DNA of 51,710 bases from Lactiplantibacillus pingfangensis (GTDB lineage Bacteria > Bacillota > Bacilli > Lactobacillales > Lactobacillaceae). The notes under the pieces were generated by a model, which saw only the letters and a list, made by a program, of their open reading frames with translations, ran no database searches and had not been told where the DNA came from. The DNA lies in the NCBI RefSeq assembly GCF_005404945.1, contig NZ_BJDG01000026.1:1-51710 (forward strand). The letters run 5' to 3'. Both the position numbers and the translations under genes were made by a program. Below, piece by piece: positions 6,869-22,395 of this stretch; position 1 is the stretch's first letter; every line of letters begins with the position of its first letter.

Positions 6869-9466
6869 ATGATTAAAACTAACCAAAAACCTAAAGTTGA
6901 AACTGAAGTTGACACACTTGTCCAACGTTCTAAAAAAGCATTAGCGGAATTGAAAACGTATACACAAGCGCAAATTGATGATTTGTGTGAAAAGGTTGCT
7001 GTCGCTGCACTCGATAATCATATGAAATTAGCCAAATTAGCGGTAGAAGAAACTGGACGAGGCGTTGTTGAAGATAAAGCCATTAAGAATATTTATGCTA
7101 GCGAATATATCTGGAATAGCATTCGTCACGATAAAACTGTGGGAATTCTAAAAGATGATGATGAAACCCAGTTGATGGAGATTGCGGAACCAGTCGGAAT
7201 CGTTGCCGGGGTCACGCCGGTGACGAATCCCACGTCAACAGTTGTTTTTAAAGCATTGATTTCATTAAAAGGTCGGAATACGATTATTTTTGGCTTTCAT
7301 CCTCAGGCCCAAAAAGCGAGTTCCGAGGCTGCACGAATTATGCAAAAGGCAATTGCTGCAGCAGGAGGGCCGGCAGATGCAGTCCTTTATATTGAAAAAC
7401 CTAGTATTGATGCGACGAATGCTTTAATGCATCATCCAGATGTAGCGACAATTTTGGCAACCGGTGGTCCTAGCATGGTAACCGCTGCCTATTCATCTGG
7501 CAAGCCAGCTTTAGGTGTTGGCCCTGGTAACGGACCGACATATGTCGAGAAAACAGCAGATATCAAGCAAGCAGTTAATGATATTGTATTATCGAAAACG
7601 TTTGATAATGGGATGATTTGTGCATCGGAAAATAGTGCTGTCATTGACAAAGAAATTTATGCGGCAGTGAAAGCTGAATTTATTCGGCTAGGCTGCTACT
7701 GGGTCAAATCAAAAGATGTTCAAGCTTTGAGTGATGCTGTCATTGATCCAAACCGGCATACTGTTCGAGGGCCAGTGGCCGGGAAATCAGCTTATCAGAT
7801 TGCACAAATGGCTGGATTGGAAGATGTTCCCGTGGATTGCCGTGTATTGATTGCTGAAATTAATGGCGTCGGCGTAAAATTCCCATTATCTGGTGAAAAA
7901 TTATCACCTGTCTTGACTGTTTACAAAGCAGATTCACATGCCTCAGCTTTCAAGCGGTGCAATGAATTATTACACTATGGTGGCTTAGGTCATACTGCGG
8001 GGTTACACACCACAGATGACGATCTTGTTAAAGCTTTTGGGTTAGCAATGCCTGCTTGTCGAATCTTAATTAATACGCCCTCTTCAGTAGGTGGTTTAGG
8101 CAATATTTACAACAATATGACGCCATCGTTAACCTTGGGAACTGGATCATATGGTGGTAACTCAATTTCTCATAACGTCACAGATATGGATCTGATTAAT
8201 ATCAAAACAGTTGCGAAGCGCCGGAATAATATGCAATGGGTCAAGATGCCACCTAAGGTTTACTTTGAACGAAACTCAGTTCAATATTTGGAACACATGG
8301 CTGGAATTAAGAAAGTCTTTATCGTTTGTGATCCTGGGATGGTTGAATTTGGCTATGCAGATCGAGTTACCGCAGTTTTAAATCGGCGACCAGAACCAGT
8401 GGATATTGATATTTTTTCAGAAGTTGAACCAAACCCATCGACTGATACGGTTTACAAAGGTGTTGCCCGCATGAAGGCATTCCATCCCGATACCATTATT
8501 GCATTAGGTGGGGGCTCAGCAATGGATGCAGCGAAAGGCATGTGGCTCTTCTATGAACATCCTGAAGCTTCCTTCTTAGGGGCTAAACAAAAATTCTTAG
8601 ATATTCGGAAACGGACTTATCGTGTACCTGTTGCAAATAAGGTGACATACGTCGGGATTCCAACCACCTCTGGGACGGGTTCAGAAGTCACCCCATATGC
8701 AGTTATTACCGATTCAAAAACGCATGTGAAGTACCCAATTACTGACTATGCTATGCAACCAGATATTGCAATTGTTGATCCACAATTCGTTGAAACGGTG
8801 CCTAAGCGGACGACTGCCTGGACAGGGTTAGATGTCATTACTCATGCGACCGAAGCTTATGTGTCAACGATGGCCTCTGATTTTACTCGCGGCTGGTCAA
8901 TCCAAGCCTTGCAACTGGCTTTTAAATACTTGAAGGCATCCTATGACGGGGACAAATTAGCGCGTGAAAAGATGCATAATGCGTCTACTTTAGCTGGGAT
9001 GGCTTTTGCAAATGCGTTCTTAGGAATTAATCATTCCATTGCGCATAAATTGGGAGGAGAATTCAATCTTCCTCATGGTTTAGCGATTGCCATCACATAT
9101 CCGCAAGTTGTTCGGTATAATGCGGAGATTCCAACTAAACTGGCAATGTGGCCCAAGTATAATCACAATACAGCGTTGGCAGACTATGCTAATATTGCGC
9201 GTGCTGTGGGATTAGCTGGTAAGACGGATGAAGAATTGAAGGAAAGCCTGGTCCAAGCTTATATTGACTTGGCACATTCGATGGACGTGACGCTTTCTTT
9301 GAAGGCTAATCGAGTTGAAAAGGAACACTTTGACGCGACCGTTGATAAGTTAGCTGAGTTAGCCTATGAGGACCAATGTACGACCGCTAATCCACGAGAA
9401 CCATTAATCAGTGAATTGAAGGCTATCATGGAACGTGAATGGGATGGTCAGGGCACTGAAAAATAG
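6869..9466 (+). CDS. adhE: Bifunctional acetaldehyde-CoA/alcohol dehydrogenase
   Basis: An 865-residue fusion of the usual AdhE length. The N-terminal half is an acylating aldehyde dehydrogenase with the catalytic Cys251 in NGMICASENS. The C-terminal half is an iron-dependent alcohol dehydrogenase with the NAD-binding GGGSAMDAAKGMW and the iron-ligand region GINHSIAHKLGGEFNLPHG (about 719-737). It converts acetyl-CoA to ethanol while oxidising two NADH, and forms spirosomes in other bacteria. In heterofermentative pentose metabolism this is an NADH sink, which fits the pentose-phosphate-yielding pathways downstream. The ATG follows ACGGAGGAA. It is monocistronic, with a Rex-like operator upstream and a strong terminator downstream. 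Confidence 0.97.
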   Translation: MIKTNQKPKVETEVDTLVQRSKKALAELKTYTQAQIDDLCEKVAVAALDNHMKLAKLAVEETGRGVVEDKAIKNIYASEYIWNSIRHDKTVGILKDDDETQLMEIAEPVGIVAGVTPVTNPTSTVVFKALISLKGRNTIIFGFHPQAQKASSEAARIMQKAIAAAGGPADAVLYIEKPSIDATNALMHHPDVATILATGGPSMVTAAYSSGKPALGVGPGNGPTYVEKTADIKQAVNDIVLSKTFDNGMICASENSAVIDKEIYAAVKAEFIRLGCYWVKSKDVQALSDAVIDPNRHTVRGPVAGKSAYQIAQMAGLEDVPVDCRVLIAEINGVGVKFPLSGEKLSPVLTVYKADSHASAFKRCNELLHYGGLGHTAGLHTTDDDLVKAFGLAMPACRILINTPSSVGGLGNIYNNMTPSLTLGTGSYGGNSISHNVTDMDLINIKTVAKRRNNMQWVKMPPKVYFERNSVQYLEHMAGIKKVFIVCDPGMVEFGYADRVTAVLNRRPEPVDIDIFSEVEPNPSTDTVYKGVARMKAFHPDTIIALGGGSAMDAAKGMWLFYEHPEASFLGAKQKFLDIRKRTYRVPVANKVTYVGIPTTSGTGSEVTPYAVITDSKTHVKYPITDYAMQPDIAIVDPQFVETVPKRTTAWTGLDVITHATEAYVSTMASDFTRGWSIQALQLAFKYLKASYDGDKLAREKMHNASTLAGMAFANAFLGINHSIAHKLGGEFNLPHGLAIAITYPQVVRYNAEIPTKLAMWPKYNHNTALADYANIARAVGLAGKTDEELKESLVQAYIDLAHSMDVTLSLKANRVEKEHFDATVDKLAELAYEDQCTTANPREPLISELKAIMEREWDGQGTEK

Positions 9467-9873: not shown

Positions 9874-11825
9874 GTGACAACTAGTAGTGGTATGGGCGAA
9901 CAAGTAAGTAATGACGTTCAAAGAGTTATTGCATATATTTATTCCAAGGATTTAGTGCACTATTCAGAATTAACTAAGTTGTTAGACGTCTCTAGGAAAA
10001 AAGTTCCAAAATATCTTGATTTGGTTGAGGAGGCTCTAAAAGGTACAGATGTTAGACTAATCCGCAAACGTAATGTTGGTATTTATTTTGAAGGTGACTT
10101 TGATAAGTTTAAACAAAAGTTTCAAGATGATGCGCAGTTATTAAATCTTGACGCGGTTGGGCGTGAAAGTCTGATCTTGTTAAAGCTGTTAATTTCAGAT
10201 CATGAAATAACAATGGCACGATTATGTGAACGCTTTTATATTAGTGGAAGCACTTTAGATCGTGATATTAAACAAATCAAAATATCATTAGCCAAGTATC
10301 ATCTGCAACTATTGAGCGATAATCATGGTCTTTATATAAAAGGAGCTGAACGCAATAAGCGCAACATTGCAAGTAAAATCGTTGCTCGATATTGGCGTGA
10401 ATCGGTCAAGGCCAATACTCGGGTAGTTAATTTTCCGAGTTCTTTGAACGAGTTAATAGATAAGGATTCGCTAAAAAAAGTTCAAACAGTTTTGCATGAA
10501 TTGCAAATCAAGACTGGATTAACTTTTACGGAATATCAGTATCAATCACTGCTTATCCATATCTGTATTTCGACGCTACGAATTAAGAATGATCGGTTTC
10601 TACAGGATAGTGATTATGGTGCTAACCAGTTTTGTGAGGAGACCAGAGTACTGGTTAAATTATTGGAGACAACTTTAAAAATTAGTATTCCTGTGACTGA
10701 ACAAGAGTATCTAAATATTCATATTTTAGCTGCGAAAAAGAATCGAATTGAAGTTACTGATTTTGAGCAAAATACCAAGTTAAACACAAAATTGCAAACG
10801 CTTTCTGCGTTTTAACTAATGAGCTGTCAGATTATGACGACCAACTCATCAATGATTTATCAATTCACTTGGAACCGGCATTGCACCGCTTTCAAGTGGG
10901 ATTACAGGCTTTTAATCCCTATACCAAGGAGATTATTAAACTTTATCCTCAATCTTTTGAACTAGCCTTTGAATTAAGTCAAAAGATTGATCAACGATTT
11001 ATGGTCACGATGGATAAGAATGAAATTGCTTATCTAGCACTTCACTTTGAAGCCTTTCTAGAACGTAAACAACCAACAACCAAAGTCAAGAATCTCGTCA
11101 ATATTGTTGTTGTATGTAGCACAGGAATGGGGACTGCACGTTTATTAACGCAAAGGATTCGTCGTTACTTTAATGGTGAAGTTGCAGTTAAACGGGTTAT
11201 CTCGGTGTCAGAGCTATTTAGAACTAAGATTTCAGAGGACTTAATTGTTAGTACATTGCCATTGGATATTCCAAATCAACGGGTTGTAGTGATTGAACCA
11301 TTCTTCAATGAAGCAGAACGGGTCCTTTTGAAGAAACAGATCGATGAAATATTAGGCAAGAAACAACCAACAGTTAATGCGTTTGTGGCATTGTTGAATT
11401 CTCAGCTAATATTTGTTAATCAAACGTTAAATACTCAGCAGGCGGTAATTAACTATGTGGGTGAACATTTGATTACTAAAAAGTTTGCAAAATCTGGAGT
11501 TGTTGAGGCTGCGCTTGAGCGTGAAAAAGTTGCCTCCACAGTTATTGAAAAAGGGTTAGCAGCTATTCCACATACAGCTAGCAAGTATGTTAATAGGTCT
11601 AGTATCTCGATCTTTATTAATCCGGGCGGTATTCAATGGGGCGATGATACTGTAAAGGTTGTCTTCTTCATTGGATTTAGTCAGGAAGATCTAAAAATTT
11701 TGTCGCTAGATGAAGTGTATAAATACTTTGATCGTCTGTTAGCTGCTAAGAAAACAATGAATCAACTTGTTGCCGCTAAGGATGTTACTTCAGTTCAACA
11801 AATAATTAATGAATTTTATAATTAA
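9874..11825 (+). pseudogene. Frameshifted PRD/EIIB/EIIA transcriptional activator
   Basis: Two adjacent reading frames together make one PTS-regulated activator of about 650 residues. The first (GTG at 9874 to TAA at 10815, 313 codons) has two N-terminal HTH regions and the first PRD (ends near NIHILAAKK). The second frame continues without a gap as LTNELSDYDDQLIND..., giving the second PRD, an EIIB-Gat-like domain with CSTGMGTARLL, and an EIIA-fru/mtl-like domain with the IPHT motif. Adding one T to the T4 run at 10810-10813 restores an uninterrupted frame (...LSAFLTNEL...). This is a one-base deletion, either real or a sequencing error. An internal TTG at 10869 could initiate only a truncated product lacking the HTH. 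It sits directly upstream of the ascorbate-like operon and presumably activates it when intact. Confidence 0.85.
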
Positions 11826-11903: not shown

Positions 11904-12794
11904 ATGAAAGTATACTTAGTAGGTCTCGGAAAAATGGGTTACAATTTAGCGCTTAACATGAAAGCGCACGGACACCAGGTTGTTGGATTTGATGTTAGTG
12001 CGGACGTGTTAAAAAAAGCAAATGCCGATGGCTTTGAGACAATTGATTCTTTAGACCAATTACAAAAAGACACGGAACGAAAAGTTATTTGGGTGATGCT
12101 ACCAGCTGGTAAAATTACTGATTCAACTTTGCTAAAGCTGGAAAAGCTAGTTTCTGAGAATGATATTGTGATTGATGGCGGCAATTCAGACTATCATGTT
12201 TCCGTTGAACGAGCTAAGGAATTTGCCAACGCTAAGGCCTTCTTTATGGACATTGGGACATCTGGTGGCACATACGGGGCATTACATGGTGCCAGCTTTA
12301 TGGTTGGCGGAGATGAAAGCGCCTACAAATACATTGAGCCATTACTTAAATCCATGGCAGCGGAAGATGGGTTGCTTTATACCGGTAAATCAGGCAGCGG
12401 TCATTACTTGAAAGTTATCCATAACGCAATTTTACATTCAATGATGGAAGTTATTGGTGAAGGGTTTGATTTATTACATGCTAGTCCCTTTGATTATGAC
12501 TTAAAGGATGTAGCTTATACCTGGAATAAGTCAGCATTAATTCGTGGCTGGTTAATGGAATTGATGTATCATGCATTGGATCAAAACAAGAAGCTGGATG
12601 ATGTCAGCACAGTTATTCATTCAAGCAGTGCTTGTGCGGATGCAGTTAAATCAGGAATGGATTTAAATATTCCGGTACCGGCATTCGGACTTTCATTATT
12701 AATGCGTCAAAGAACTCAAAATCAAGAAACTTTTGATGCAAGAGTTATTAACTCTTTGAGAAAGGAGGTTGGCGGTTATCGGCCGGAAGCGTAA
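11904..12794 (+). CDS. 6-phosphogluconate dehydrogenase paralogue lacking catalytic Glu
   Basis: A 296-residue protein of the short (YqeC/GntZ-type) 6-phosphogluconate dehydrogenase branch. The NAD(P)-binding motif VGLGKMGYNLA is at residues 6-16, DGGNSDYH at 91-98, and the substrate motif DIGTSGGTYGALHGASFMVGG at 116-136. The catalytic Lys170, His173 and Asn174 are present (GHYLKVIHN). Residue 177 is Leu in IHNAILHS, whereas the family has Glu (HNGIEYG; Glu190 of the sheep enzyme), the acid that protonates C1 after decarboxylation. This suggests that it oxidises C3 of a 6-phosphohexonate but does not complete the decarboxylation. It is the first gene of the operon with a UlaD-type decarboxylase. 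The ATG follows AAAGGATGG. The role is inferred. Confidence 0.8.
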   Translation: MKVYLVGLGKMGYNLALNMKAHGHQVVGFDVSADVLKKANADGFETIDSLDQLQKDTERKVIWVMLPAGKITDSTLLKLEKLVSENDIVIDGGNSDYHVSVERAKEFANAKAFFMDIGTSGGTYGALHGASFMVGGDESAYKYIEPLLKSMAAEDGLLYTGKSGSGHYLKVIHNAILHSMMEVIGEGFDLLHASPFDYDLKDVAYTWNKSALIRGWLMELMYHALDQNKKLDDVSTVIHSSSACADAVKSGMDLNIPVPAFGLSLLMRQRTQNQETFDARVINSLRKEVGGYRPEA

Positions 12795-13083
12795 GTTATT
12801 TTATTGGTACAACGTGGAACATCAAAAAGGTAGAACTGTATACTGTTGGAACACTTTAATCAGTTATATAAGATTAATCCTAATTTTATCAGGCGTAATT
12901 CTCTGTGTTCAGAATCATTATGTAATTGCGCTACTGGTTGTGCTAGCCTACGGTGTTATTTACTTCTCATACCTTCATAAGAATCACAATATCCTACTTA
13001 AGATTCACCAAAAAGAATCAATTGCAAAAATTACGGGATTCAGATATTCATTTACCCGCCCATTAGAAATATGGGTTAAGTAG
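12769..13083 (+). CDS. Small membrane protein of unknown function
   Basis: I do not recognise a family. The frame of up to 104 codons (TTG at 12769) overlaps the end of the dehydrogenase gene. It encodes a basic N-terminus, two adjacent hydrophobic helices (LISYIRLILILSGVILCV, then YVIALLVVLAYGVIYFSYL) and a basic, polar C-terminal tail ending FTRPLEIWVK. An AAAGGAGG site lies at 12760-12767, too close to the TTG at 12769. GTG at 12814, which would give about 90 residues, is an alternative start without an obvious site. It lies inside the operon on the same strand, which supports it being real. It may be a small membrane accessory of the PTS permease, but there is no direct evidence. Confidence 0.5.
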   Translation: MAVIGRKRKLFYWYNVEHQKGRTVYCWNTLISYIRLILILSGVILCVQNHYVIALLVVLAYGVIYFSYLHKNHNILLKIHQKESIAKITGFRYSFTRPLEIWVK

Positions 13084-13146: not shown

Positions 13147-13599
13147 ATGAATGATTTGATAAAAGACAATATTAACTTGCATGCAGACGTGAAAACAAGA
13201 AAAGAAGCGTTATATCAAATGAGCGTCATGCTTGAAAAAAATGACGTCATTAGTGATAAAGATGCCTTTTATGCAGCTGTACTTGATCGTGAGGCGATAG
13301 GCCCTACTGGAATGGAAAATGGCATTGCGATCCCTCACGGTGAATCTGATGTTGTTAAAGATGCAGCTATTGCAGTCTTTAAGACCAACCAAGATTTGAA
13401 ATGGGATAGTTTAGACGGTAAGCCGATTAAATTGATCTTCATGTTGGTTGTTCCGACACAGCATCGAGATGTTAACCATCTGAAGATATTATCGCATCTC
13501 TCAGCAGCTTTAACACATAAAGATGTTCAGCAACAGCTATTAACAGAAAATAATGTAACCGATTTCAAGAAAATATTAGAAAAATCTGGAGGAATGTAA
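13147..13599 (+). CDS. PTS EIIA, fructose/mannitol type
   Basis: A 150-residue EIIA of the fructose-mannitol family. The phosphorylated histidine is His64 in NGIAIPHGES, the standard motif. It receives phosphate from HPr and passes it to the EIIB encoded two bases downstream. Three separate genes (EIIA, EIIB, EIIC) follow each other, as in Fru-family permeases with unlinked domains. A GAAGGTAGTGA ribosome binding site precedes the ATG. Confidence 0.92.
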   Translation: MNDLIKDNINLHADVKTRKEALYQMSVMLEKNDVISDKDAFYAAVLDREAIGPTGMENGIAIPHGESDVVKDAAIAVFKTNQDLKWDSLDGKPIKLIFMLVVPTQHRDVNHLKILSHLSAALTHKDVQQQLLTENNVTDFKKILEKSGGM

Positions 13600-13601
13600 T
13601 T

Positions 13602-13919
13602 ATGAAAATTGTCGGAGTAACAGCTTGTACTGTCGGAATTGCACACACTTATATGGCTCGTGAAAAATTAATTAGCGCAGCTGAAAATTTGGGTATGGAA
13701 GCTCATGTTGAAACCCAAGGGAGTGCAGGAATGGAAAACCAACTTACAGAACAACATATTAAAGACGCCGATATTGTCATTATTGCGGCGGACGTTGCGA
13801 TTACTGGTGAGGATCGTTTCCATGGTAAAGCGGTTGTTAAAGTTCCAACCAATACAGCCATTCAAACGCCTGAAAGTTTATTACGAACAATTCAAAAGAA
13901 GTTGCAAGTCGCCAATTAA
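13602..13919 (+). CDS. PTS EIIB, fructose type
   Basis: A 105-residue single-domain EIIB-fru. The phosphorylated Cys9 lies in the motif TACTVGIAHTYMA, and ETQGSAGMEN follows at the usual distance. It transfers phosphate from EIIA to the incoming substrate at the EIIC. It starts two bases after the EIIA stop with TGGAGGAATG-type spacing, so the two genes are translationally coupled. Confidence 0.93.
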   Translation: MKIVGVTACTVGIAHTYMAREKLISAAENLGMEAHVETQGSAGMENQLTEQHIKDADIVIIAADVAITGEDRFHGKAVVKVPTNTAIQTPESLLRTIQKKLQVAN

Positions 13920-13957: not shown

Positions 13958-15022
13958 ATGTATCGGGATATATTTAAAATCGACAACTTAAAAAGACACT
14001 TTTTAAGTGGATTATCTTATATGATTCCTCTTATCATTATGTCTGGGTTTTGTACAGCAATTGCCCGAATTATCGGTGGGACAGATATCAAAGGATCCTT
14101 CTCATATTATTTACTCGCAGCCGGTAATGATGGTTTTACAATTATGATTGCTGTTTTAGCCGCCGGGATTGGCTATTCGATTGCCGGTAAGTCGGCAATT
14201 GCACCCGGACTATTAGGTGGGTATCTGTCAACTGTTGTTAACGCTAGTTTCTTAGGTGGGATTATTGTTGGGATTACATCTGGGATGTTAGTTCTCTGGT
14301 GTAACAGTTGGAAATTGCCGAAGTCAGTTAAGTCGATGGTGCCATTAGTTATTATTCCATTATTGGGCGGGATTTTAGAGACAGTATTGGTAATGTATGT
14401 CATCGGTCCGCCATTGGCTGCATTGACTGGAGCTGCGGTCAAATTCTTTATGGGTATGAATCACGCTTCAAGATTTGTACTTGGTTTTCTACTTGGTAGT
14501 ATGACGGGGTTTGATATGGGCGGTCCCGTTAACAAGATCTCATTTGCGATTGTTACCGCGTTTGCATCATCGGGTGTCTGGGGGCCAGCGGCAGGCAAAA
14601 ATGTTGCTGCAATGGCGCCACCATTGGGAATTGCATTCTCAGTATTATTATTTTCACCACATAAATACACGCAGGCAGATCGTGAAAATGCTAAAGCTGC
14701 AATTATCATGTCAATGTGTCAAGTCACTGAAGGTGCCTTACCGTTTGCCTTTGAAGACCCTGTCAGGGTTGTACCAGCAGTAGTATTAGGATCAGGAATT
14801 GCCGATGGATTGATCTTGTCTTGGGGTGTCACAGTACCATTACTTTCAGGTGGGATCTTTACCATTCCAGTTGCAAGTAATCCATTCCTCTATTTAGCAG
14901 CGTTATTAATTGGTGCTTGCATCACTGGGGTAACGCTTTCCCTAATCAAACCTAAGATCAAGGAAAGTTCTAAAGAAGAAGAAGTTCATGATGATTTAGA
15001 TATTGATATTAATATTGATTAA
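13958..15022 (+). CDS. PTS EIIC, fructose-type permease
   Basis: A 354-residue integral membrane protein with about 9-10 hydrophobic segments. It carries the Fru-family signature FDMGGPVNKISFA (about 186-198) and the TEGALPFAFEDP loop, equivalent to the conserved TEpAIPF segment. The C-terminus is a charged tail rich in Asp and Glu. Fru-family permeases carry fructose, mannitol-like polyols and some sugar acids; the neighbouring ascorbate-pathway enzymes, rather than fructose enzymes, argue for an acidic substrate here. AAGGAGTGG precedes the ATG. Confidence 0.9.
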   Translation: MYRDIFKIDNLKRHFLSGLSYMIPLIIMSGFCTAIARIIGGTDIKGSFSYYLLAAGNDGFTIMIAVLAAGIGYSIAGKSAIAPGLLGGYLSTVVNASFLGGIIVGITSGMLVLWCNSWKLPKSVKSMVPLVIIPLLGGILETVLVMYVIGPPLAALTGAAVKFFMGMNHASRFVLGFLLGSMTGFDMGGPVNKISFAIVTAFASSGVWGPAAGKNVAAMAPPLGIAFSVLLFSPHKYTQADRENAKAAIIMSMCQVTEGALPFAFEDPVRVVPAVVLGSGIADGLILSWGVTVPLLSGGIFTIPVASNPFLYLAALLIGACITGVTLSLIKPKIKESSKEEEVHDDLDIDINID

Positions 15023-15042
15023 AGATTAGGAGATTGTTAGTT

Positions 15043-15681
15043 ATGACTAGACCAAATTTACAAATTGCTTTAGATCAAGATTCTTTGGAAGACGCGCTTG
15101 GAATTGTTAAACAGGCTGGTCCAGAAGTTGATGTTGTTGAAGCCGGAACCATCTTGCAATTACAAGAGGGCGTTAAAGCAGTTAGCTGTTTACGGCATAT
15201 GTTCCCAGATAAGATTGTTGTTTCTGATACTAAGTGTGCTGATGCCGGTGGAACCGTGGCAAAACACAGTAAGGACGCTGGGGCCGATTGGATGACGATG
15301 ATTTGTTGTGCAACGATTCCAACGATGCAAGCAGCCAAGAAAGAACTGAATGACTTACAAGTTGAATTATATGGTGATTGGACTTGGGATCAAGCTAAGA
15401 AGTGGCGTGAGATTGGGATTGATCAGGCTGTCTATCATCAAAGTCGGGATGCTTTATTAGCTGGTGAAGTCTGGGGCGAAAAAGATTTATCAGTTGTTAA
15501 AAAACTAATTGATATGGGCTTTAAAGTTTCAGTTACTGGTGGCTTAACCGTTGATACCTTAAAACTCTTTAAAGGTGTGCCTGTCTTTACATTTATTGCT
15601 GGTCGAGCAATTACTGGTCAAGATGATCCTCATGCTGCTGCTAAGGCATTACGGGACGAAATTACCAAGTATTGGGGTTGA
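15043..15681 (+). CDS. ulaD: 3-keto-L-gulonate-6-phosphate decarboxylase
   Basis: A 212-residue member of the OMP decarboxylase superfamily. Glu33, Asp62, Lys64 and Asp67 (VVSDTKCADAGG) match the catalytic residues of E. coli UlaD at the same numbers, and YHQSRDALLAG holds the His and Arg that distinguish keto-gulonate-phosphate decarboxylase from hexulose-phosphate synthase. It converts 3-keto-L-gulonate-6-P to L-xylulose-5-P with Mg2+. I start at the ATG at 15043, nine bases after AGGAG. It is followed five bases later by the 3-epimerase. The C-terminal phosphate-binding motifs VSVTGGL and AGRAITG are intact. Confidence 0.93.
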   Translation: MTRPNLQIALDQDSLEDALGIVKQAGPEVDVVEAGTILQLQEGVKAVSCLRHMFPDKIVVSDTKCADAGGTVAKHSKDAGADWMTMICCATIPTMQAAKKELNDLQVELYGDWTWDQAKKWREIGIDQAVYHQSRDALLAGEVWGEKDLSVVKKLIDMGFKVSVTGGLTVDTLKLFKGVPVFTFIAGRAITGQDDPHAAAKALRDEITKYWG

Positions 15682-15686
15682 GATAA

Positions 15687-16550
15687 ATGTTAGGAATCTA
15701 CGAAAAAGCTTTACCACATCAAATGGACTGGAATCAAAAACTGAAATTGGCGAAAGGGTTAGGATTTGATTTTGTTGAAATGTCAGTTGATGAAAGTGAT
15801 GAGCGCTTAGCACGATTGGACTGGGATAATGATGAAATTGAATCGGTACACCAAGCCATTATCAGTAATGATTTGCCAATCCTGTCAATGTGTTTGAGCG
15901 GTCATCGGCGGTTCCCATTAGGTTCCCATCAGCTTAAAAATCGTCAGACAGCGCTGACAATGATGCTGAAAGCTATTAAGCTCGCATCTCGACTTGGTAT
16001 TAGAAATATCCAATTAGCCGGTTATGATGTTTATTACGAAGATAAGTCGCCCTTAACTCGGCAATTATTTATACAAAACTTGACTAAATGTGTCAAAATG
16101 GCTGAAAAATATGAAGTTATGCTTTCAATTGAGATTATGGATGATCCGTTTATTAATTCTATTTCCAAGGTTCAACATATTAAGACGTTGATTCATAGTC
16201 CTTGGTTGCAAGCTTACCCGGACATCGGTAATTTGTCTGCTTGGCCAGAAAATGATGTTGGATACGAGTTAGAACATGGTATTGATAATATTGCTGCAGT
16301 TCATTTAAAGGATACCTTGCCAGTTCATGGTGATTTTCCAGGTAAGTTTAAAAATGTTCCATTTGGTGAAGGAACGGTTGATTTCGTTGGATGTTTAAGA
16401 ACATTGAAATCTTTGGGATACAATGGTCCTTACATGATTGAAATGTGGAGTGAAATGAGTTCTGACCCAGTTGGGGAAATTAAAGTCGCTAAGCAATTTA
16501 TTGATAAGGCATTTACTAATGCTGAGGCGGAGGTTGACGAACATGCTTGA
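15687..16550 (+). CDS. ulaE: L-xylulose-5-phosphate 3-epimerase
   Basis: A 287-residue TIM-barrel protein of the xylose-isomerase-like UlaE/SgbU family. Recognisable parts are the N-terminal GIYEKALPHQMDW, CLSGHRRFPLGS (about 69-80), the metal-binding Glu in SIEIMDDPF, the YPDIGNLSAW segment, and HLKDTLPVHGDFPG followed by VPFGEGTVDF near 205-230. It converts L-xylulose-5-P to L-ribulose-5-P, the middle step of the ascorbate lower pathway. Its stop overlaps the start of the 4-epimerase gene, so the two are translationally coupled. Confidence 0.93.
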   Translation: MLGIYEKALPHQMDWNQKLKLAKGLGFDFVEMSVDESDERLARLDWDNDEIESVHQAIISNDLPILSMCLSGHRRFPLGSHQLKNRQTALTMMLKAIKLASRLGIRNIQLAGYDVYYEDKSPLTRQLFIQNLTKCVKMAEKYEVMLSIEIMDDPFINSISKVQHIKTLIHSPWLQAYPDIGNLSAWPENDVGYELEHGIDNIAAVHLKDTLPVHGDFPGKFKNVPFGEGTVDFVGCLRTLKSLGYNGPYMIEMWSEMSSDPVGEIKVAKQFIDKAFTNAEAEVDEHA

Positions 16551-17274
16551 AACACTGAAACAAAAAGTTTATGAAGCAAATATGCAATTGCCAAAGTTAA
16601 ACTTGGTAACGTTTACGTGGGGAAATGTTAGTGGTATTGATCGTGATAAGGGCTTGTTTGTCATTAAGCCGAGTGGCGTTGCCTATGATCAGCTAAAGCC
16701 AAGTGATATGGTTGTTGTGGATCTGGATGGTCAGATTGTTGAAGGTGAACTGAATCCTTCCAGTGATACACCAACACATGCAATTTTGTATCGTGAATTT
16801 CCTGAAATTGGCGGAATCGTTCATACCCACTCGCCATGGGCAGTTTCATTTGCACAAGCGGGGATGGCTGTGCCCGCCTGTGGGACGACACATGCAGATA
16901 CTTTCTACGGCCCTGTTCCGGTCACACCACAATTGAGTAAACAACAAATTGCTGATGATTATGAGGGCAATACTGGGCGTGTAATAGTTGATACCTTTAA
17001 AAAGCAGCAGTTGGATACGGACGCTGTGCCAGGAGTTTTGGTACAAGATCATGGTCCATTTACTTGGGGTGCAACTCCCGATAAAGCAGTTTACAATGCT
17101 AAGGTATTGGAAGTTGTCGCTGAGATGGCTTATCATACAATGCAGTTGTCTGGACACGCTGATCCGTCAGTACCGCAATATCTATTGGATAAGCACTACT
17201 ATCGTAAGCACGGAGACAATGCTTATTATGGGCAGAGCAATCCTAAGTCAATGACACATGAACACATCTTATAA
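16543..17274 (+). CDS. ulaF: L-ribulose-5-phosphate 4-epimerase
   Basis: A 243-residue class II aldolase/epimerase. The zinc-binding HTHSPWA motif is at about 94-100, NVSGID and KPSGV supply phosphate and substrate contacts, and QDHGPFTWG marks the conserved later histidine region. It epimerises L-ribulose-5-P to D-xylulose-5-P, which enters the phosphoketolase pathway. AraD catalyses the same reaction; I favour the UlaF role because ulaD and ulaE precede it. The ATG at 16543 has GCGGAGG upstream and overlaps the previous stop by eight bases. It is the last gene of the operon. Confidence 0.93.
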   Translation: MLETLKQKVYEANMQLPKLNLVTFTWGNVSGIDRDKGLFVIKPSGVAYDQLKPSDMVVVDLDGQIVEGELNPSSDTPTHAILYREFPEIGGIVHTHSPWAVSFAQAGMAVPACGTTHADTFYGPVPVTPQLSKQQIADDYEGNTGRVIVDTFKKQQLDTDAVPGVLVQDHGPFTWGATPDKAVYNAKVLEVVAEMAYHTMQLSGHADPSVPQYLLDKHYYRKHGDNAYYGQSNPKSMTHEHIL

Positions 17275-17287
17275 AGGGCGTTGATAG

Positions 17288-17329
17288 ATTGGTTTGAGTA
17301 AAAGTCACTTTACTCAAACCAATTTTTTT
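17288..17329 (+). terminator. Rho-independent terminator of ascorbate-like operon
   Basis: ATTGGTTTGAGTAAA and TTTACTCAAACCAAT form a perfect 15-bp stem with a six-base loop and a T7 run. Confidence 0.95.
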
Positions 17330-17437: not shown

Positions 17438-17469
17438 GAACTTGTAAATAAGTAAGGGAGTTGAAAAAC

Positions 17470-17913
17470 ATGGCAATGTTTGAAGTAAGTCATATGAACA
17501 TGGCGCTTAAGGGTGCCGATCAAGATAGTATCTTAAAGGATCTTGCCAAATTAGCAAAGTCGATTGATGTTGTTGATGACGAAGCCCAACTAGTTGCGGA
17601 TTATCACGAACGTGAAGTTGAATCAACAACTGGTTTTGGCAATGGTGTGGCGATTCCACATGCTAAATCAAACAATGTGAAAACGGCAACGATTCTATTT
17701 GGTCGCAGTGCCAATGAGATTGAATGGCAATCATTGGATGGCAAACCGGTAAATACGTTTATCAGTTTATTGGTCCCAGCAAATGCTGGAGATGTTCATT
17801 TGAAGTTATTAGCTAGTTTAAGTCGTAAGTTAGTTCATAAAGATTTTGTGGCCATTTTAAAAAATGGCGATCAGTCAGCTGTTTTGGATGCAATTAATCA
17901 AGCAATTAGTTAG
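17470..17913 (+). CDS. PTS EIIA, fructose type
   Basis: A 147-residue EIIA of the fructose-mannitol family with phosphorylation site His64 in NGVAIPHAKS. I chose the ATG at 17470, nine bases after AAGGGAG, over the TTG at 17461 that sits next to the site. It is the first gene of a PTS operon controlled by a cre-overlapped promoter, and the EIIBC gene follows 14 bases later. It is related to, but clearly different from, the EIIA at 13147. Confidence 0.92.
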   Translation: MAMFEVSHMNMALKGADQDSILKDLAKLAKSIDVVDDEAQLVADYHEREVESTTGFGNGVAIPHAKSNNVKTATILFGRSANEIEWQSLDGKPVNTFISLLVPANAGDVHLKLLASLSRKLVHKDFVAILKNGDQSAVLDAINQAIS

Positions 17914-17927
17914 AGGAGGGATTTTAA

Positions 17928-19385
17928 ATGGCAAATATGAAAATTGTTGCCGTTACTAATTGTCCGGCCGGAATTGCGCACACTTACATGGTTGCTGAAG
18001 CGATTGAAGAAAAAGCAAAGTCGCTCGGTTATGAAGCTCATGTTGAAACGCAAGGTGCTAGCGGGGTTGAAAACAAGTTAACACCAGATCAAATTGCTAC
18101 GGCGGATTATGTCATCTTAGCCCTTGGTAAAGGGATGACAGATGAGGATAAGCAACGGTTTAATGGTAAAAAAGTTGTTGAACTACCGGTTTCAGAAGCG
18201 TTAAAAGAAATCGATACGTTATTTGACAACATTGATGATAAGGCTAGAGTCTTTGAGGCCTCAAAAGTTAAACTAGGTAGTGAACAAGATGCCGTTACAG
18301 ACGGCGTGATGAGTTACCTGATGGCTGGTGTTTCGGCGGCATTGCCATTTGTTATCGGTGGTGGGTTATTAATCGCGATCGGTAGTATGATGGTTCAATT
18401 TGGGATGCCCAATACGGCCTTGGCTAAGGGCGTACAGCCATCATTGGCTTGGGTCATTACCAGCATTGGTAATTTAGGCTTTCAGTTCATGATTCCAATT
18501 ATGGGTGCCTATATTGCGTTTGCGATTGGTGATAAGCCAGCCTTTGCACCGGCCTTCTTAGTAACCTTTTTGGCGAATGATACTGATTTACTAGGAACAA
18601 AATCTGGTGCTGGTTTCTTGGGCGCGATTGTCGTTGGGCTATCAATTGGTTACTTTGTTAAATATTTCAAGAAAGTTAAACTGGGTAAGAATTTCCAATC
18701 AATTTTAGGGTTTATGATTATTCCGTTTGTGACATTATTAGTCTTTGGACTATTAACTTATTACCTGTTAGGACCATTTATGGGTTGGTTAATGAGTATC
18801 CTCTTAGCATTCTTGAAAAACATTCCAACTTCAATGAAGTTGGGCGGCGGCTTCCTAGTTGGCTGTATGTTGGCTTTCGATATGGGTGGCCCAATCAACA
18901 AGACCGCTTGGTTCTTTAGTTTTTCATTGTTAAGTTCCGGTGTTTATAACTGGTACGGGATTGTTGGGGTTGTAACGTTATTACCACCAATGGCAGCGGC
19001 AATTGCCACTTGGATTCGTCCAAGCCTCTTCTCTAAACAAGAACGAGCGGCTAGCTGGAGTTCATTCTTAGTTGGGATGACAGTTGCGACTGAACCTGCG
19101 ATTCCATATGCTTTGGCGGCACCGTTACCAATGATTGCGGCGAACACGCTTGCTGGTGGGATCACCGGTGCGATTACGATCATGTTAAATGTTCAACGGA
19201 TGGCGCCTGGGATTGGGATCTTTGATCCATTAATTGGTTTGGAAAAGCCATGGTATTGGTTCTATCTCTCATTGGCAATTGGGTTGTTCTTGAACGTGTT
19301 CTTCATTATCACTTTCAAGTCAGCTTGGTTAAAGCGGCGCGAAAAGAAAGAACAAGAAAAGCTTGCGCAGGTTGAAGATAAATAA
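17928..19385 (+). CDS. PTS EIIBC, fructose family
   Basis: A 485-residue fusion. Residues 4-100 form EIIB-fru with phosphorylated Cys12 (TNCPAGIAHTYM), and residues 125-475 form the EIIC with about 9-10 membrane segments, AFDMGGPINKTAWFF and ATEPAIPYALAAPL, the Fru-family substrate-binding signatures. The C-terminus is highly charged (KRREKKEQEK). The partner EIIA is encoded directly upstream. No fructose-1-P kinase or mannosidase accompanies it; instead a PLP C-S lyase follows, so the transported substrate is not evident and may not be plain fructose. GAGGAGGG precedes the ATG. Confidence 0.93.
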   Translation: MANMKIVAVTNCPAGIAHTYMVAEAIEEKAKSLGYEAHVETQGASGVENKLTPDQIATADYVILALGKGMTDEDKQRFNGKKVVELPVSEALKEIDTLFDNIDDKARVFEASKVKLGSEQDAVTDGVMSYLMAGVSAALPFVIGGGLLIAIGSMMVQFGMPNTALAKGVQPSLAWVITSIGNLGFQFMIPIMGAYIAFAIGDKPAFAPAFLVTFLANDTDLLGTKSGAGFLGAIVVGLSIGYFVKYFKKVKLGKNFQSILGFMIIPFVTLLVFGLLTYYLLGPFMGWLMSILLAFLKNIPTSMKLGGGFLVGCMLAFDMGGPINKTAWFFSFSLLSSGVYNWYGIVGVVTLLPPMAAAIATWIRPSLFSKQERAASWSSFLVGMTVATEPAIPYALAAPLPMIAANTLAGGITGAITIMLNVQRMAPGIGIFDPLIGLEKPWYWFYLSLAIGLFLNVFFIITFKSAWLKRREKKEQEKLAQVEDK

Positions 19386-19414
19386 TCGATACATGCCACT
19401 TTTAAAAGAATATT

Positions 19415-19450
19415 AATAAACAGGCATGTTTGATGACATGTCTGTTTATT
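19415..19450 (+). terminator. Intercistronic hairpin before MalY-like gene
   Basis: AATAAACAGGCATGT and ACATGTCTGTTTATT form a 15-base stem (one mismatch) with a TTGATG loop. No separate T run follows beyond the U-rich arm, so it may be a partial terminator or mRNA-stabilising hairpin that lowers expression of the downstream genes relative to the PTS. Confidence 0.55.
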
Positions 19451-19473
19451 TATCGAGCGGAGGAGTGTCAAAG

Positions 19474-20637
19474 ATGAAGTATAATTTTGATCAAGTTATT
19501 AATCGTCGTGGAACTTATAGCACGCAATGGGATTACATTCAGGATCGGTTTGGTCGATCAGACATTATCCCATTCTCGATCTCAGATACTGATTTTCCAG
19601 TCCCAGTTGGCGTTCAGGACGCCTTAAAAAAGCGAATTGAACATCCAATTTACGGCTATACACGTTGGAATCATGACGATTATAAAAATAGTATTGTAAA
19701 CTGGTTTAAAAATCAGAATGACTATGAGCCCAATCCAGATTGGATTTTATATAGTCCCAGTGTTGTCTTCACAATTGCGACTTTCATGCGGCTGAAATCT
19801 GAGGTTGGTGACGGTGTTGCGGTCTTTACGCCAATGTATGATGCGTTTTATCATGTTATTGAGGATAATGATAGACTATTAATGCCGGTGAGGTTAGGCA
19901 GCGCACAACAGGGTTATCAGATTGACTGGGATGCTTTAGAGACGGTGCTTGCACAGCATAATACGAAGATCTTATTGGTTACCAATCCGCATAATCCAAC
20001 GGGGAAAGTCTTCTCACCAGCCGAATTGAAACGGATGGTGGCACTTTGTCAGCAATACCATGTGTTTATTATTTCGGATGATATTCATAAAGATATCGTT
20101 TTTTCAGCCGCAACCTATACGCCGATTACGACGTACGTTCAAAAAAACGTAGTCTTGTGTTGCTCCGCGACGAAAACCTTTAATACGCCAGGATTAATTG
20201 GCTCGTATTTATTTGAACCAGAAGAAGCATTACGATCAGCATTTTTAGTGGAATTGAAACAGAAAAATGCCTTGTCATCAGCTAGCATCTTTGGGATCGA
20301 GTCGCAAATCGCGGCATATAATACAGGTGCTGATTATTTGTTACAATTAATTAGCTATTTGCAAAACAATTTTGATTATTTGTCTGACTTTTTACAAAAA
20401 CAATTGCCAGAAGTTACCTTTAAACAGCCGCAGGCGACCTATTTAGCTTGGATGGATGTGTCAAAGTTAGGGTTAACATCGGAAGCGTTACAGTCCAAAT
20501 TAGTCAATCAAGGCCGGGTTGGCATTATGCCTGGGAAAACGTATGGTGATAGCCAATATTTACGGATGAACATTGCGTGCCCAATCTCGAAACTACAGGA
20601 GGGACTGAGAAGAATGGAGCAGGGAATCCGTTCGTAA
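19474..20637 (+). CDS. MalY/PatB-type PLP-dependent C-S beta-lyase
   Basis: A 387-residue fold-type I aminotransferase-like protein. FSISDTDFPVP near 34-44 is the MalY/PatB variant of the WVADMDF signature. TNPHNPTGK (170-178), SDDIHKDIVF (201-210) and the PLP lysine Lys234 in SATKTFNTPG are intact; a C-terminal Arg in YLRMNIACP binds the substrate carboxylate. The family cleaves cystathionine or cysteine S-conjugates to pyruvate, ammonia and a thiol, and E. coli MalY also has a regulatory role beside the PTS gene malX. Here too it is linked to a PTS. The ATG at 19474 lies eight bases after GGAGGAG. Whether it is an enzyme for the imported compound or a regulator is open. Confidence 0.88.
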   Translation: MKYNFDQVINRRGTYSTQWDYIQDRFGRSDIIPFSISDTDFPVPVGVQDALKKRIEHPIYGYTRWNHDDYKNSIVNWFKNQNDYEPNPDWILYSPSVVFTIATFMRLKSEVGDGVAVFTPMYDAFYHVIEDNDRLLMPVRLGSAQQGYQIDWDALETVLAQHNTKILLVTNPHNPTGKVFSPAELKRMVALCQQYHVFIISDDIHKDIVFSAATYTPITTYVQKNVVLCCSATKTFNTPGLIGSYLFEPEEALRSAFLVELKQKNALSSASIFGIESQIAAYNTGADYLLQLISYLQNNFDYLSDFLQKQLPEVTFKQPQATYLAWMDVSKLGLTSEALQSKLVNQGRVGIMPGKTYGDSQYLRMNIACPISKLQEGLRRMEQGIRS

Positions 20638-20640
20638 AAT

Positions 20641-22395
20641 ATGCTGAATTCACGGGAATTAAGGATTATCTTATTATTACAGGAACACGACCTTTCAGGC
20701 GAGGAATTAGCGACACTATTAGCGACTTCTAGAAGAACAATTGTGCGTGATATTGCTCAAATCAATACTTTGTTGGCAACTGAAAAGATTGGATCGGTTG
20801 AAAGTGTTAAAAAGTATCATTTGCTAGTATTAAATACGGCTAACTTTAATCAACTGCTAACGAGAGTTAACAATGAAAGTGATTTGGTCCTGCTTCACTT
20901 GCTAATTCAACCAAATATTAGTATGGCTGAATTAGCAGAAAAGACTTTTTTATCGCGTCAAAATATTCTTAACAATATTGAAAAGTTGAATCGGCGGTTC
21001 CAGGATGTTTTAAAAATTAGTTCTAAACCCCGAATTGGGATTGCCCTTAAAATAAAGCATATTTCTAAAATTGATGTTTTAGCAGCCTTGATTTTAGATA
21101 ATCAGCAACTAGTGACGAAACAATTAAAACAATGGCAACTAGCTCCGGAAATTGAGACGCCAGCACGGATTATTCGCCAACAACTGCCGGAACAACTATT
21201 TGACTATTTAACAGCAGGACAATTGCATGCTCAGATCCTGGCTTGTTATTTAGTTGCGCAACAAGCCGTGACCGTATCGAACCAGACATTATTAAATGAG
21301 TTCGTACGGCATGAAATTAACATTAGCGTTGCTAGTATTTTGACTAATTTCTTTGAGATTAAGCTTAAACTATTAACTGATCTGACGATGGTTAAAGTTC
21401 AAACAGCGATTCAAGTCACTAAAACGCGGTATACATTAGATGCGCTGGATAATAATTTTACCAGTGAAATCTTGAACCATCTACGTCGTAGTTCGATGTT
21501 TCCAACGTTTGTGCCAGAATCATTACTTGAACAAATTCGCTATCTTAAAATTCAAAACCCGTTCGCCTTTGATTTTGCTTTTGATCTAACGAAAAAGTTA
21601 CAAAGTACATTTAAAAGCAGTCAAATTGAAGATGAGTATATCGCGCTGTACGTTTTACGGGCAATTGAAACGCCAGTTGCCCATAATGTTCGAACTTTAA
21701 TGTATGGAACACGTCAATCTGTCGCAAATATCAACAAAATGATTATTACCGAACAGGTACCGAACCTAGATATTGAAATGGTATTTTCGAGAGAACAAAT
21801 GGAAACACGGCTCGCTTATATTGACTTCGACTTGGTGATCGGTAATGGCTTGCATCCCAATGATTTACGCGTACCAGTTCATTTTGACAGCACTTTTGAT
21901 GGCATCATCAGCCAGGATGAGTTAGATCGACTTAAGAATTTGGGGAGTGAGAGTTACATTCAGGAGAACTTACTGAAGTTTTTCCCAAAGAGTCATTTTG
22001 TTCGATTGAAAGGTGTCCATCATAGTGCTAAGCGTGTGCTGCGTGATGGATTAGCTAAATTTAGTGACCTTGGCCTGTTGACCGATGACCAAGCCACGGC
22101 ACTGATTAACCGTGAAGAGGCTGGCAATCAACTAGTCTTAAATCATATCTCGATTCCGCATGCTTCCACTGAATTAGTCGATGCTTATGAATTATTTGCC
22201 ATTTCGTTTGATGGTGAGGTTAAAATAGACGGCAAACCTATTTATTTAATGATTATGGTTTTGGCTAACCAGGGCCGTAAAGATAATGGTCAGGTCTTTG
22301 GTTATATCTATGCCAAAATTAAGCATTTAAGTGCAGTCCAGTTGCAGCGGCTGACCGACCACGAACAATTAATTGATCAATTAAAACAAAACTAA
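20641..22395 (+). CDS. PRD-containing PTS-regulated transcription factor
   Basis: A 584-residue BglG/MtlR-like regulator. Residues 1-60 contain an HTH (LSGEELATLLATSRRTIVRD), a second HTH is at about 90-125 (NISMAELAEKTFLSRQNI), followed by a PRD-type helical region around 190-345, an EIIB-like domain (about 355-420, no obvious catalytic Cys) and a C-terminal EIIA domain with IPHAS (about 500-504). Phosphorylation of PRD and EIIA histidines by the PTS is expected to set its activity. It starts three bases after the aminotransferase stop, so it belongs to the operon and probably controls it. A terminator follows. Confidence 0.88.
   Translation: MLNSRELRIILLLQEHDLSGEELATLLATSRRTIVRDIAQINTLLATEKIGSVESVKKYHLLVLNTANFNQLLTRVNNESDLVLLHLLIQPNISMAELAEKTFLSRQNILNNIEKLNRRFQDVLKISSKPRIGIALKIKHISKIDVLAALILDNQQLVTKQLKQWQLAPEIETPARIIRQQLPEQLFDYLTAGQLHAQILACYLVAQQAVTVSNQTLLNEFVRHEINISVASILTNFFEIKLKLLTDLTMVKVQTAIQVTKTRYTLDALDNNFTSEILNHLRRSSMFPTFVPESLLEQIRYLKIQNPFAFDFAFDLTKKLQSTFKSSQIEDEYIALYVLRAIETPVAHNVRTLMYGTRQSVANINKMIITEQVPNLDIEMVFSREQMETRLAYIDFDLVIGNGLHPNDLRVPVHFDSTFDGIISQDELDRLKNLGSESYIQENLLKFFPKSHFVRLKGVHHSAKRVLRDGLAKFSDLGLLTDDQATALINREEAGNQLVLNHISIPHASTELVDAYELFAISFDGEVKIDGKPIYLMIMVLANQGRKDNGQVFGYIYAKIKHLSAVQLQRLTDHEQLIDQLKQN

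Follow-up and report, generated by a model that had tools for sequence, protein, structure and literature searches.

The window, i.e., the whole stretch of 51,710 nucleotides from Lactiplantibacillus pingfangensis that was analysed, encodes at 11904..12794 (+ strand, ATG start) a 296-aa dehydrogenase of the 6-phosphogluconate dehydrogenase (6PGDH) family with the residues Leu177 and His178 in its catalytic stretch. We use the name gndL (protein GndL) for this gene and its counterparts in the clade that shares the Leu-His pair. Seven genes follow 3' of gndL on the same strand, with gaps of at most 63 bp or overlaps. They encode a conserved small membrane-like protein that overlaps the end of gndL (12769..13083; 104 aa, no Pfam match), the EIIA, EIIB and EIIC components of a fructose-family PTS (13147..13599, 13602..13919 and 13958..15022, respectively; all profile matches), the decarboxylase UlaD (15034..15681), the L-ribulose-5-phosphate 3-epimerase UlaE (15687..16550) and the L-ribulose-5-phosphate 4-epimerase UlaF/AraD (16543..17274), the latter two again from profile matches. 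The initial annotation had placed a dedicated keto-acid decarboxylase in the same operon, which agrees with the match of UlaD to NF009832 (322.1 bits, cut-off 250). The score for the stricter NF009831 is below its cut-off (247.8 vs. 294). UlaD of the window matches the E. coli protein at ten positions, which we take to be catalytic or ligand residues. A terminator-like hairpin of 17 pairs followed by a T-run is located directly after ulaF (17286..17325, +); over the whole terminator scan, 5 sites were found compared to 5.4 in shuffled sequences, i.e., there is no excess.

Upstream of gndL, we find a regulator of the Mga/PRD/EIIA type (9874..11825, +) that is split into two frames (9874-10815 and 10869-11825). 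The frame changes near 10812 with no residues missing, and the L. nangangensis counterpart is a single ORF of 650 aa; the change may be a true frameshift or an assembly error. Upstream of both genes lies an AdhE-type aldehyde/alcohol dehydrogenase (6869..9466, +). Beyond the cluster, the region 17461-22395 holds a second fructose-like PTS (EIIA, EIIBC) and a class I/II aminotransferase, followed by an ORF of 584 aa that looks like a further regulator of the PRD type. For a cre-like consensus, five matches are observed (at 6950, 10792, 13553 and 48958, two of them on one near-palindromic site) compared to 1.3 expected. None of 100 shuffles reaches five, and all matches are inside ORFs.

Judged from its profile matches, GndL is a short-chain 6PGDH relative. 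It scores 315.7 bits for the NCBIfam subfamily NF007161 (cut-off 271) and narrowly misses the equivalog TIGR00872 (289.1 vs. a cut-off of 297.2). Its NAD_binding_2 and helical domains are covered by the Pfam families PF03446 (134.9 bits) and PF00393 (41.3 bits), and it shows the characteristics of the beta-hydroxyacid dehydrogenase superfamily including the Lys/Asn motif (K170 and N174). When aligned with solved 6PGDHs, the IHNAILHS of GndL sits without gaps over VHNGIEYG, such that K170, H173 and N174 correspond to K183, H186 and N187 of the sheep enzyme (in 9/9 clade members) and L177 and H178 to E190 and Y191. The codons of the altered stretch Ile176-Leu177-His178-Ser179 are at 12429..12440 (+). 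The retained Lys, His and Asn as well as the Leu in place of Glu190 had been called correctly in the initial annotation, which had passed over the neighbouring change from Tyr191 to His178. Elsewhere in the same genome, a long-chain Gnd reads HNGIEYG, i.e., it has the Glu-Tyr pair. Superfamily relatives carry other residues at the Glu190 position, namely I in L003 (assigned to the superfamily by sequence only), V in GarR and S in YihU (both of E. coli).

To describe how widespread the variant is, we combined several scans. Five of 301 Lactobacillaceae genomes encode a protein with 68-100% identity to the query, and the remaining proteins are at most 48% identical among the matches listed. A scan of genome contigs with two short patterns added L. 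laiwuensis and a metagenome-assembled genome (MAG) of Alkalibaculum bacchi; L. paracasei, with 1 record, and L. salivarius, with 9, came from a collection of plasmids. No further clade member was found in the scans at the level of order (395 genomes), genus (21), phylum (398) and class (348), where all samples except that of the genus were drawn evenly from larger groups. In two of these scans the best score drops from 585 bits for the window protein to at most 358, and all loci fetched from the four scans have Glu-Tyr. Within another genus, 1/8 genomes holds a clade protein, which is an already counted member.

All nine distinct members read HNAILH, with Leu-His at the Glu-Tyr position, and the other eight are 59-95% identical to the window protein. 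For comparison, this residue was read in the 74 ordinary short-chain forms that were fetched as loci out of a larger number of scan matches. Glu-Tyr is present in 74/74 of them and Leu in none, which bears on the concern, raised in the initial annotation, that Leu might be common among proven decarboxylating enzymes. Since Leu-His is shared by 9/9 members, we ruled out a sequencing error or a lone mutation as the cause of Leu177. The variant forms a monophyletic clade: in the tree, the nine members group together (support 100/100), and their stem has a length of 1.31 changes per column. Their neighbours (96/85) are ordinary forms, from Lactobacillaceae and in one case from elsewhere in Lactobacillales. 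The simplest reading of these sequences is one origin, after which the gene became scattered and was in part carried on plasmids. Since the Alkalibaculum copy comes from a MAG, it may reflect a binning error.

Next, we consider the active site based on the 14 substrate-contact positions of sheep 6PGDH that are listed in excerpts of PMC1919378 and PMC8900737. Nine of the 14 are identical across all nine members and all 74 ordinary forms. The K260 position is Ser in the clade as well as in 72/74 ordinary short forms. The remaining four differ class-wide: Leu replaces E190, His replaces Y191, Tyr replaces H452', and Ala stands at the T262 position, where ordinary short forms have an invariant Glu. 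Among 296 positions there are 13 class-fixed differences, 4 of which fall on the 14 contact sites (P = 0.0018, a rough value because positions are treated as independent). The base Lys, the Ser, His and Asn as well as the phosphate-site Arg positions R287 and R446' are kept in 9/9 members, where the R446 column is uncertain outside the short forms since it is aligned to Q and K in two long-chain Gnds. The site thus looks remodelled yet still phosphate-binding. A replacement Glu nearby, which the initial annotation had considered, was not found: in the sequence comparison of the nine members with the ordinary forms, the clade gained no acidic residue elsewhere and lost two (at 177 and 243). His178 and Tyr292 are new and fixed in the clade, and either could serve as a substitute acid. 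The AlphaFold2 model (window protein and five related sequences) has a mean pLDDT of 55.6, with residues 154-296 below 50, which is too poor for structural arguments, such that our view of the pocket derives from sequence comparison. Finally, GndL has Asp30 in the second-strand region vs. Asn-Arg in two long-chain Gnds, which suggests NAD as the cofactor.

According to the same excerpts (PMC1919378, PMC8900737), Lys183 is the base for both oxidation and decarboxylation, and Glu190 is the general acid in the last step of the 6PGDH reaction, i.e., the tautomerisation and protonation of the enediol. On this account, the loss of Glu predicts an unfinished reaction, which is not necessarily one that stops before CO2 release. 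The initial annotation had concluded from the missing Glu that the enzyme would stop at the 3-keto acid. This is too strong on its own, because Glu190 works in the final tautomerisation and the Lys is kept. The wider idea, in which the dehydrogenase would pass a 3-keto acid on to UlaD, finds support from comparative genomics, and the gene context is a stronger case for non-completion than the loss of Glu.

We therefore turn to the gene context, which we compared across nine gndL loci of 6.6 to 52 kb. The small protein and the fructose-family EIIA, EIIB and EIIC follow gndL in all nine, and a PRD-type regulator adjoins it in eight (all except Alkalibaculum). UlaD, UlaE and UlaF are present in 7/9 loci when counting the partial UlaD of L. 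timonensis, where a one-N assembly join interrupts the gene; 6/9 clusters hold an intact UlaD. The initial annotation had suggested a search for other genomes in which the Leu variant and UlaD co-occur; the two are found together in seven of the nine loci (one with a partial copy). The cluster of L. laiwuensis is without UlaD, and a copy is found elsewhere in that genome in an ascorbate operon. No UlaD was found in the Alkalibaculum MAG, where the cluster contig ends after UlaG. No UlaA-type EIIC was found in any of these nine loci, and UlaG was found in that of Alkalibaculum only, such that in 6/9 loci an intact UlaD stands with neither UlaG nor UlaA found in the locus. AdhE is near gndL in three loci (window, L. 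nangangensis and L. timonensis); it is a possible outlet for NADH, a role that is weakened by its absence near gndL in the other six.

Two of the clusters carry additional genes. In the one from Alkalibaculum (L047:4306-6541), a UlaG-like lactonase is encoded together with a protein of 355 aa that has no Pfam match, perhaps to feed a phospho-lactone into the same pathway. On the L. salivarius plasmid that was read (L049:12795-16278), genes for a Cof-type hydrolase, a protein of the fructose-6-phosphate aldolase type and a transketolase come after that for UlaD.

UlaD is found in 31/301 Lactobacillaceae genomes (E 1e-50). An intact copy is present in 4/5 genomes with the Leu variant vs. 27/296 others (Fisher test, P = 4e-4); if the L. 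timonensis fragments are counted, this becomes 5/5 (P = 1e-5). Both p-values are to be read with the small number of Leu genomes in mind and with related genomes not being independent. Beyond the gndL clusters, 29 UlaD loci were compared, i.e., those of the 27 other genomes plus a second L. nangangensis copy and the L. laiwuensis copy. UlaG lies at most about 4 kb away in 28 of them, and the remaining one is cut by a contig end. Neither gndL, nor any short 6PGDH (E 1e-8), nor the EIIC of the gndL cluster occurs in any of these 29 loci. That is, UlaD has two settings: with gndL here and with UlaG elsewhere. A chance linkage of gndL with UlaD was rejected based on the Fisher test, the 0/29 other loci and the comparison of the nine loci.

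At the level of genomes, UlaG is absent from three of the seven Leu genomes searched (the window genome, with no match at E 1e-10, as well as G258 and G123) and present in four (L. nangangensis, L. timonensis, L. laiwuensis and Alkalibaculum). UlaA is represented in the window genome by a 28% relative on another contig only. L. timonensis has one UlaG about 10 kb from gndL and another on a contig whose beginning holds the first part of UlaD; ascorbate genes may therefore adjoin the gndL cluster there.

In a tree of 36 UlaD proteins, those linked to gndL occupy three separate positions, one held by Lactiplantibacillus together with G123, one by L. paracasei and one by L. salivarius, and well-supported branches force at least three label changes between the two settings, which may instead comprise one gain and two losses. 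At 212/214 aligned positions, the UlaD encoded on the L. paracasei plasmid agrees with that of an ascorbate operon. On the DNA level, the ulaD stretch of the plasmid has 99.1% identity over 668 bases to this operon, and two more stretches downstream are at 97%. Taken together, the sequences indicate that UlaD was swapped between the gndL and ascorbate settings more than once. Such exchangeability suggests the same substrate in both, i.e., 3-keto-L-gulonate 6-phosphate or its C2 epimer.

C3 oxidation of 6-phospho-L-gulonate, -L-idonate or -L-galactonate gives a compound that UlaD could turn into L-xylulose 5-phosphate. Given the clade-wide Leu-His pair, the remodelled contact positions, the non-acidic residues of three superfamily relatives at the Glu190 position and the gene context of UlaD, we propose that GndL is an NAD-dependent 6-phospho-hexonate 3-dehydrogenase that leaves the 6PGDH reaction unfinished and releases the 3-keto acid to UlaD, a reading to which we assign a probability of about 0.65. 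Here, the fructose-family PTS would import and phosphorylate an L-hexonate (most likely L-gulonate or L-idonate, possibly L-galactonate), GndL would oxidise C3 to yield 3-keto-L-gulonate 6-phosphate or its C2 epimer, UlaD would decarboxylate this product to L-xylulose 5-phosphate, and UlaE together with UlaF would convert the latter to D-xylulose 5-phosphate. GndL and the PTS would thereby replace UlaG and UlaABC as the source of the UlaD substrate, and a one-enzyme 6PGDH reaction would be split over two proteins. The residue change, the clade, the gene order, the two settings of UlaD and its exchange between them are observed, while substrate, direction, cofactor and the predicted lack of decarboxylation are the conditional parts of this scheme. 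Counting against it are the late role of Glu190, the candidate substitute acids His178 and Tyr292, the two clusters without UlaD and the four Leu genomes with UlaG.

The strongest competitor, which we nevertheless hold to be unlikely, is that GndL converts an epimer such as L-idonate 6-phosphate directly to L-xylulose 5-phosphate by full oxidative decarboxylation, in which His178 or some other residue donates the proton, and that UlaD acts on a different substrate that these cells take up. L-idonate 6-phosphate is the C5 epimer of 6-phospho-D-gluconate. The retained Lys, the late role of Glu190 in tautomerisation (excerpts of PMC1919378 and PMC8900737), the new and fixed His178 and Tyr292 as well as the clusters of L. 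laiwuensis and Alkalibaculum without a local UlaD are all in line with it. Against it stand the three tree places of gndL-linked UlaDs and the six loci with an intact UlaD and no UlaG or UlaA found, and no UlaG was found that could feed such a UlaD in the window genome, G258 or G123.

The same three genomes speak against the quite improbable case of GndL acting as a reductase that forms a hexonate phosphate from ascorbate-derived 3-keto-L-gulonate 6-phosphate and so offers a redox outlet, for which the UlaG of four Leu genomes (in the cluster of Alkalibaculum and about 10 kb away in L. timonensis) could be cited. Moreover, the cluster has its own PTS and UlaDEF, i.e., a catabolic set, and an AdhE near gndL in 3/9 loci suggests NADH in need of disposal. 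That GndL is an ordinary NAD-dependent 6-phosphogluconate dehydrogenase, as the NF007161 score and the public annotation of the L. paracasei and L. salivarius copies (NAD-dependent decarboxylating 6PGDH) have it, is very improbable given the lost proton donor, the four changed contact positions, the score below TIGR00872, the lack of a gluconate gene among the cluster genes scanned and the long-chain Gnd with HNGIEYG in the same genome, the last of which also led us to reject a housekeeping 6PGDH role.

Returning to the proposed dehydrogenase that supplies UlaD, we consider a more specific account slightly more probable than not: a new non-decarboxylating, NAD-dependent 6-phospho-L-gulonate (or L-idonate) 3-dehydrogenase would have evolved once from 6PGDH by loss of the terminal proton donor and would have opened a PTS-fed, ascorbate-independent entry to UlaDEF, which spread among lactobacilli partly on plasmids, with UlaD being exchanged with ascorbate operons several times. 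If GndL indeed works in this way, nature has divided the oxidation and decarboxylation steps of a textbook one-enzyme reaction between two proteins, and some lactobacilli gain a route for an L-hexonate that is independent of vitamin C. The public labels of the L. paracasei and L. salivarius copies would then need correcting, and GndL, as a 6PGDH relative that naturally lacks the terminal acid, could be used to test what Glu190 is needed for.

Among the titles and abstracts listed from the open-access literature, no 6PGDH relative working with UlaD is described. UlaD and UlaE appear in the parts of PMC10164179, PMC11942490 and PMC3928093 considered as ascorbate genes or as ulaE with its neighbours, and no 6PGDH is named there. 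Among known systems, the short-chain NAD-dependent 6PGDHs GntZ/YqeC are among the closest to GndL: they are its neighbours in the tree and share its length, the catalytic Lys and Asn, the His, the Ser-Gly-Gly and the phosphate-site Arg positions. GndL differs from them by Leu-His for Glu-Tyr, Tyr for the tail His and Ala for the invariant Glu (T262 position) as well as by the operon with a PTS and UlaDEF. The ula pathway for L-ascorbate of E. coli and lactobacilli shares UlaD, UlaE and UlaF with the gndL cluster, whereas gndL clusters carry the dehydrogenase and a fructose-family PTS, with no UlaA-type EIIC found and UlaG in Alkalibaculum only. 3-Hydroxyisobutyrate dehydrogenase and the tartronate semialdehyde reductase GarR belong to the same superfamily, have a non-acidic residue at the Glu190 position like GndL, and catalyse a redox reaction without decarboxylation. 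They are, however, distant (the relative encoded in the window genome shares 24% identity across residues 2-186), and GarR and L003 are without the His-Asn pair and the Arg287 position of 6PGDH. Mammalian L-gulonate 3-dehydrogenase (EC 1.1.1.45) belongs to another protein family and acts on an unphosphorylated substrate, but its product is the unphosphorylated analogue of the one proposed for GndL.
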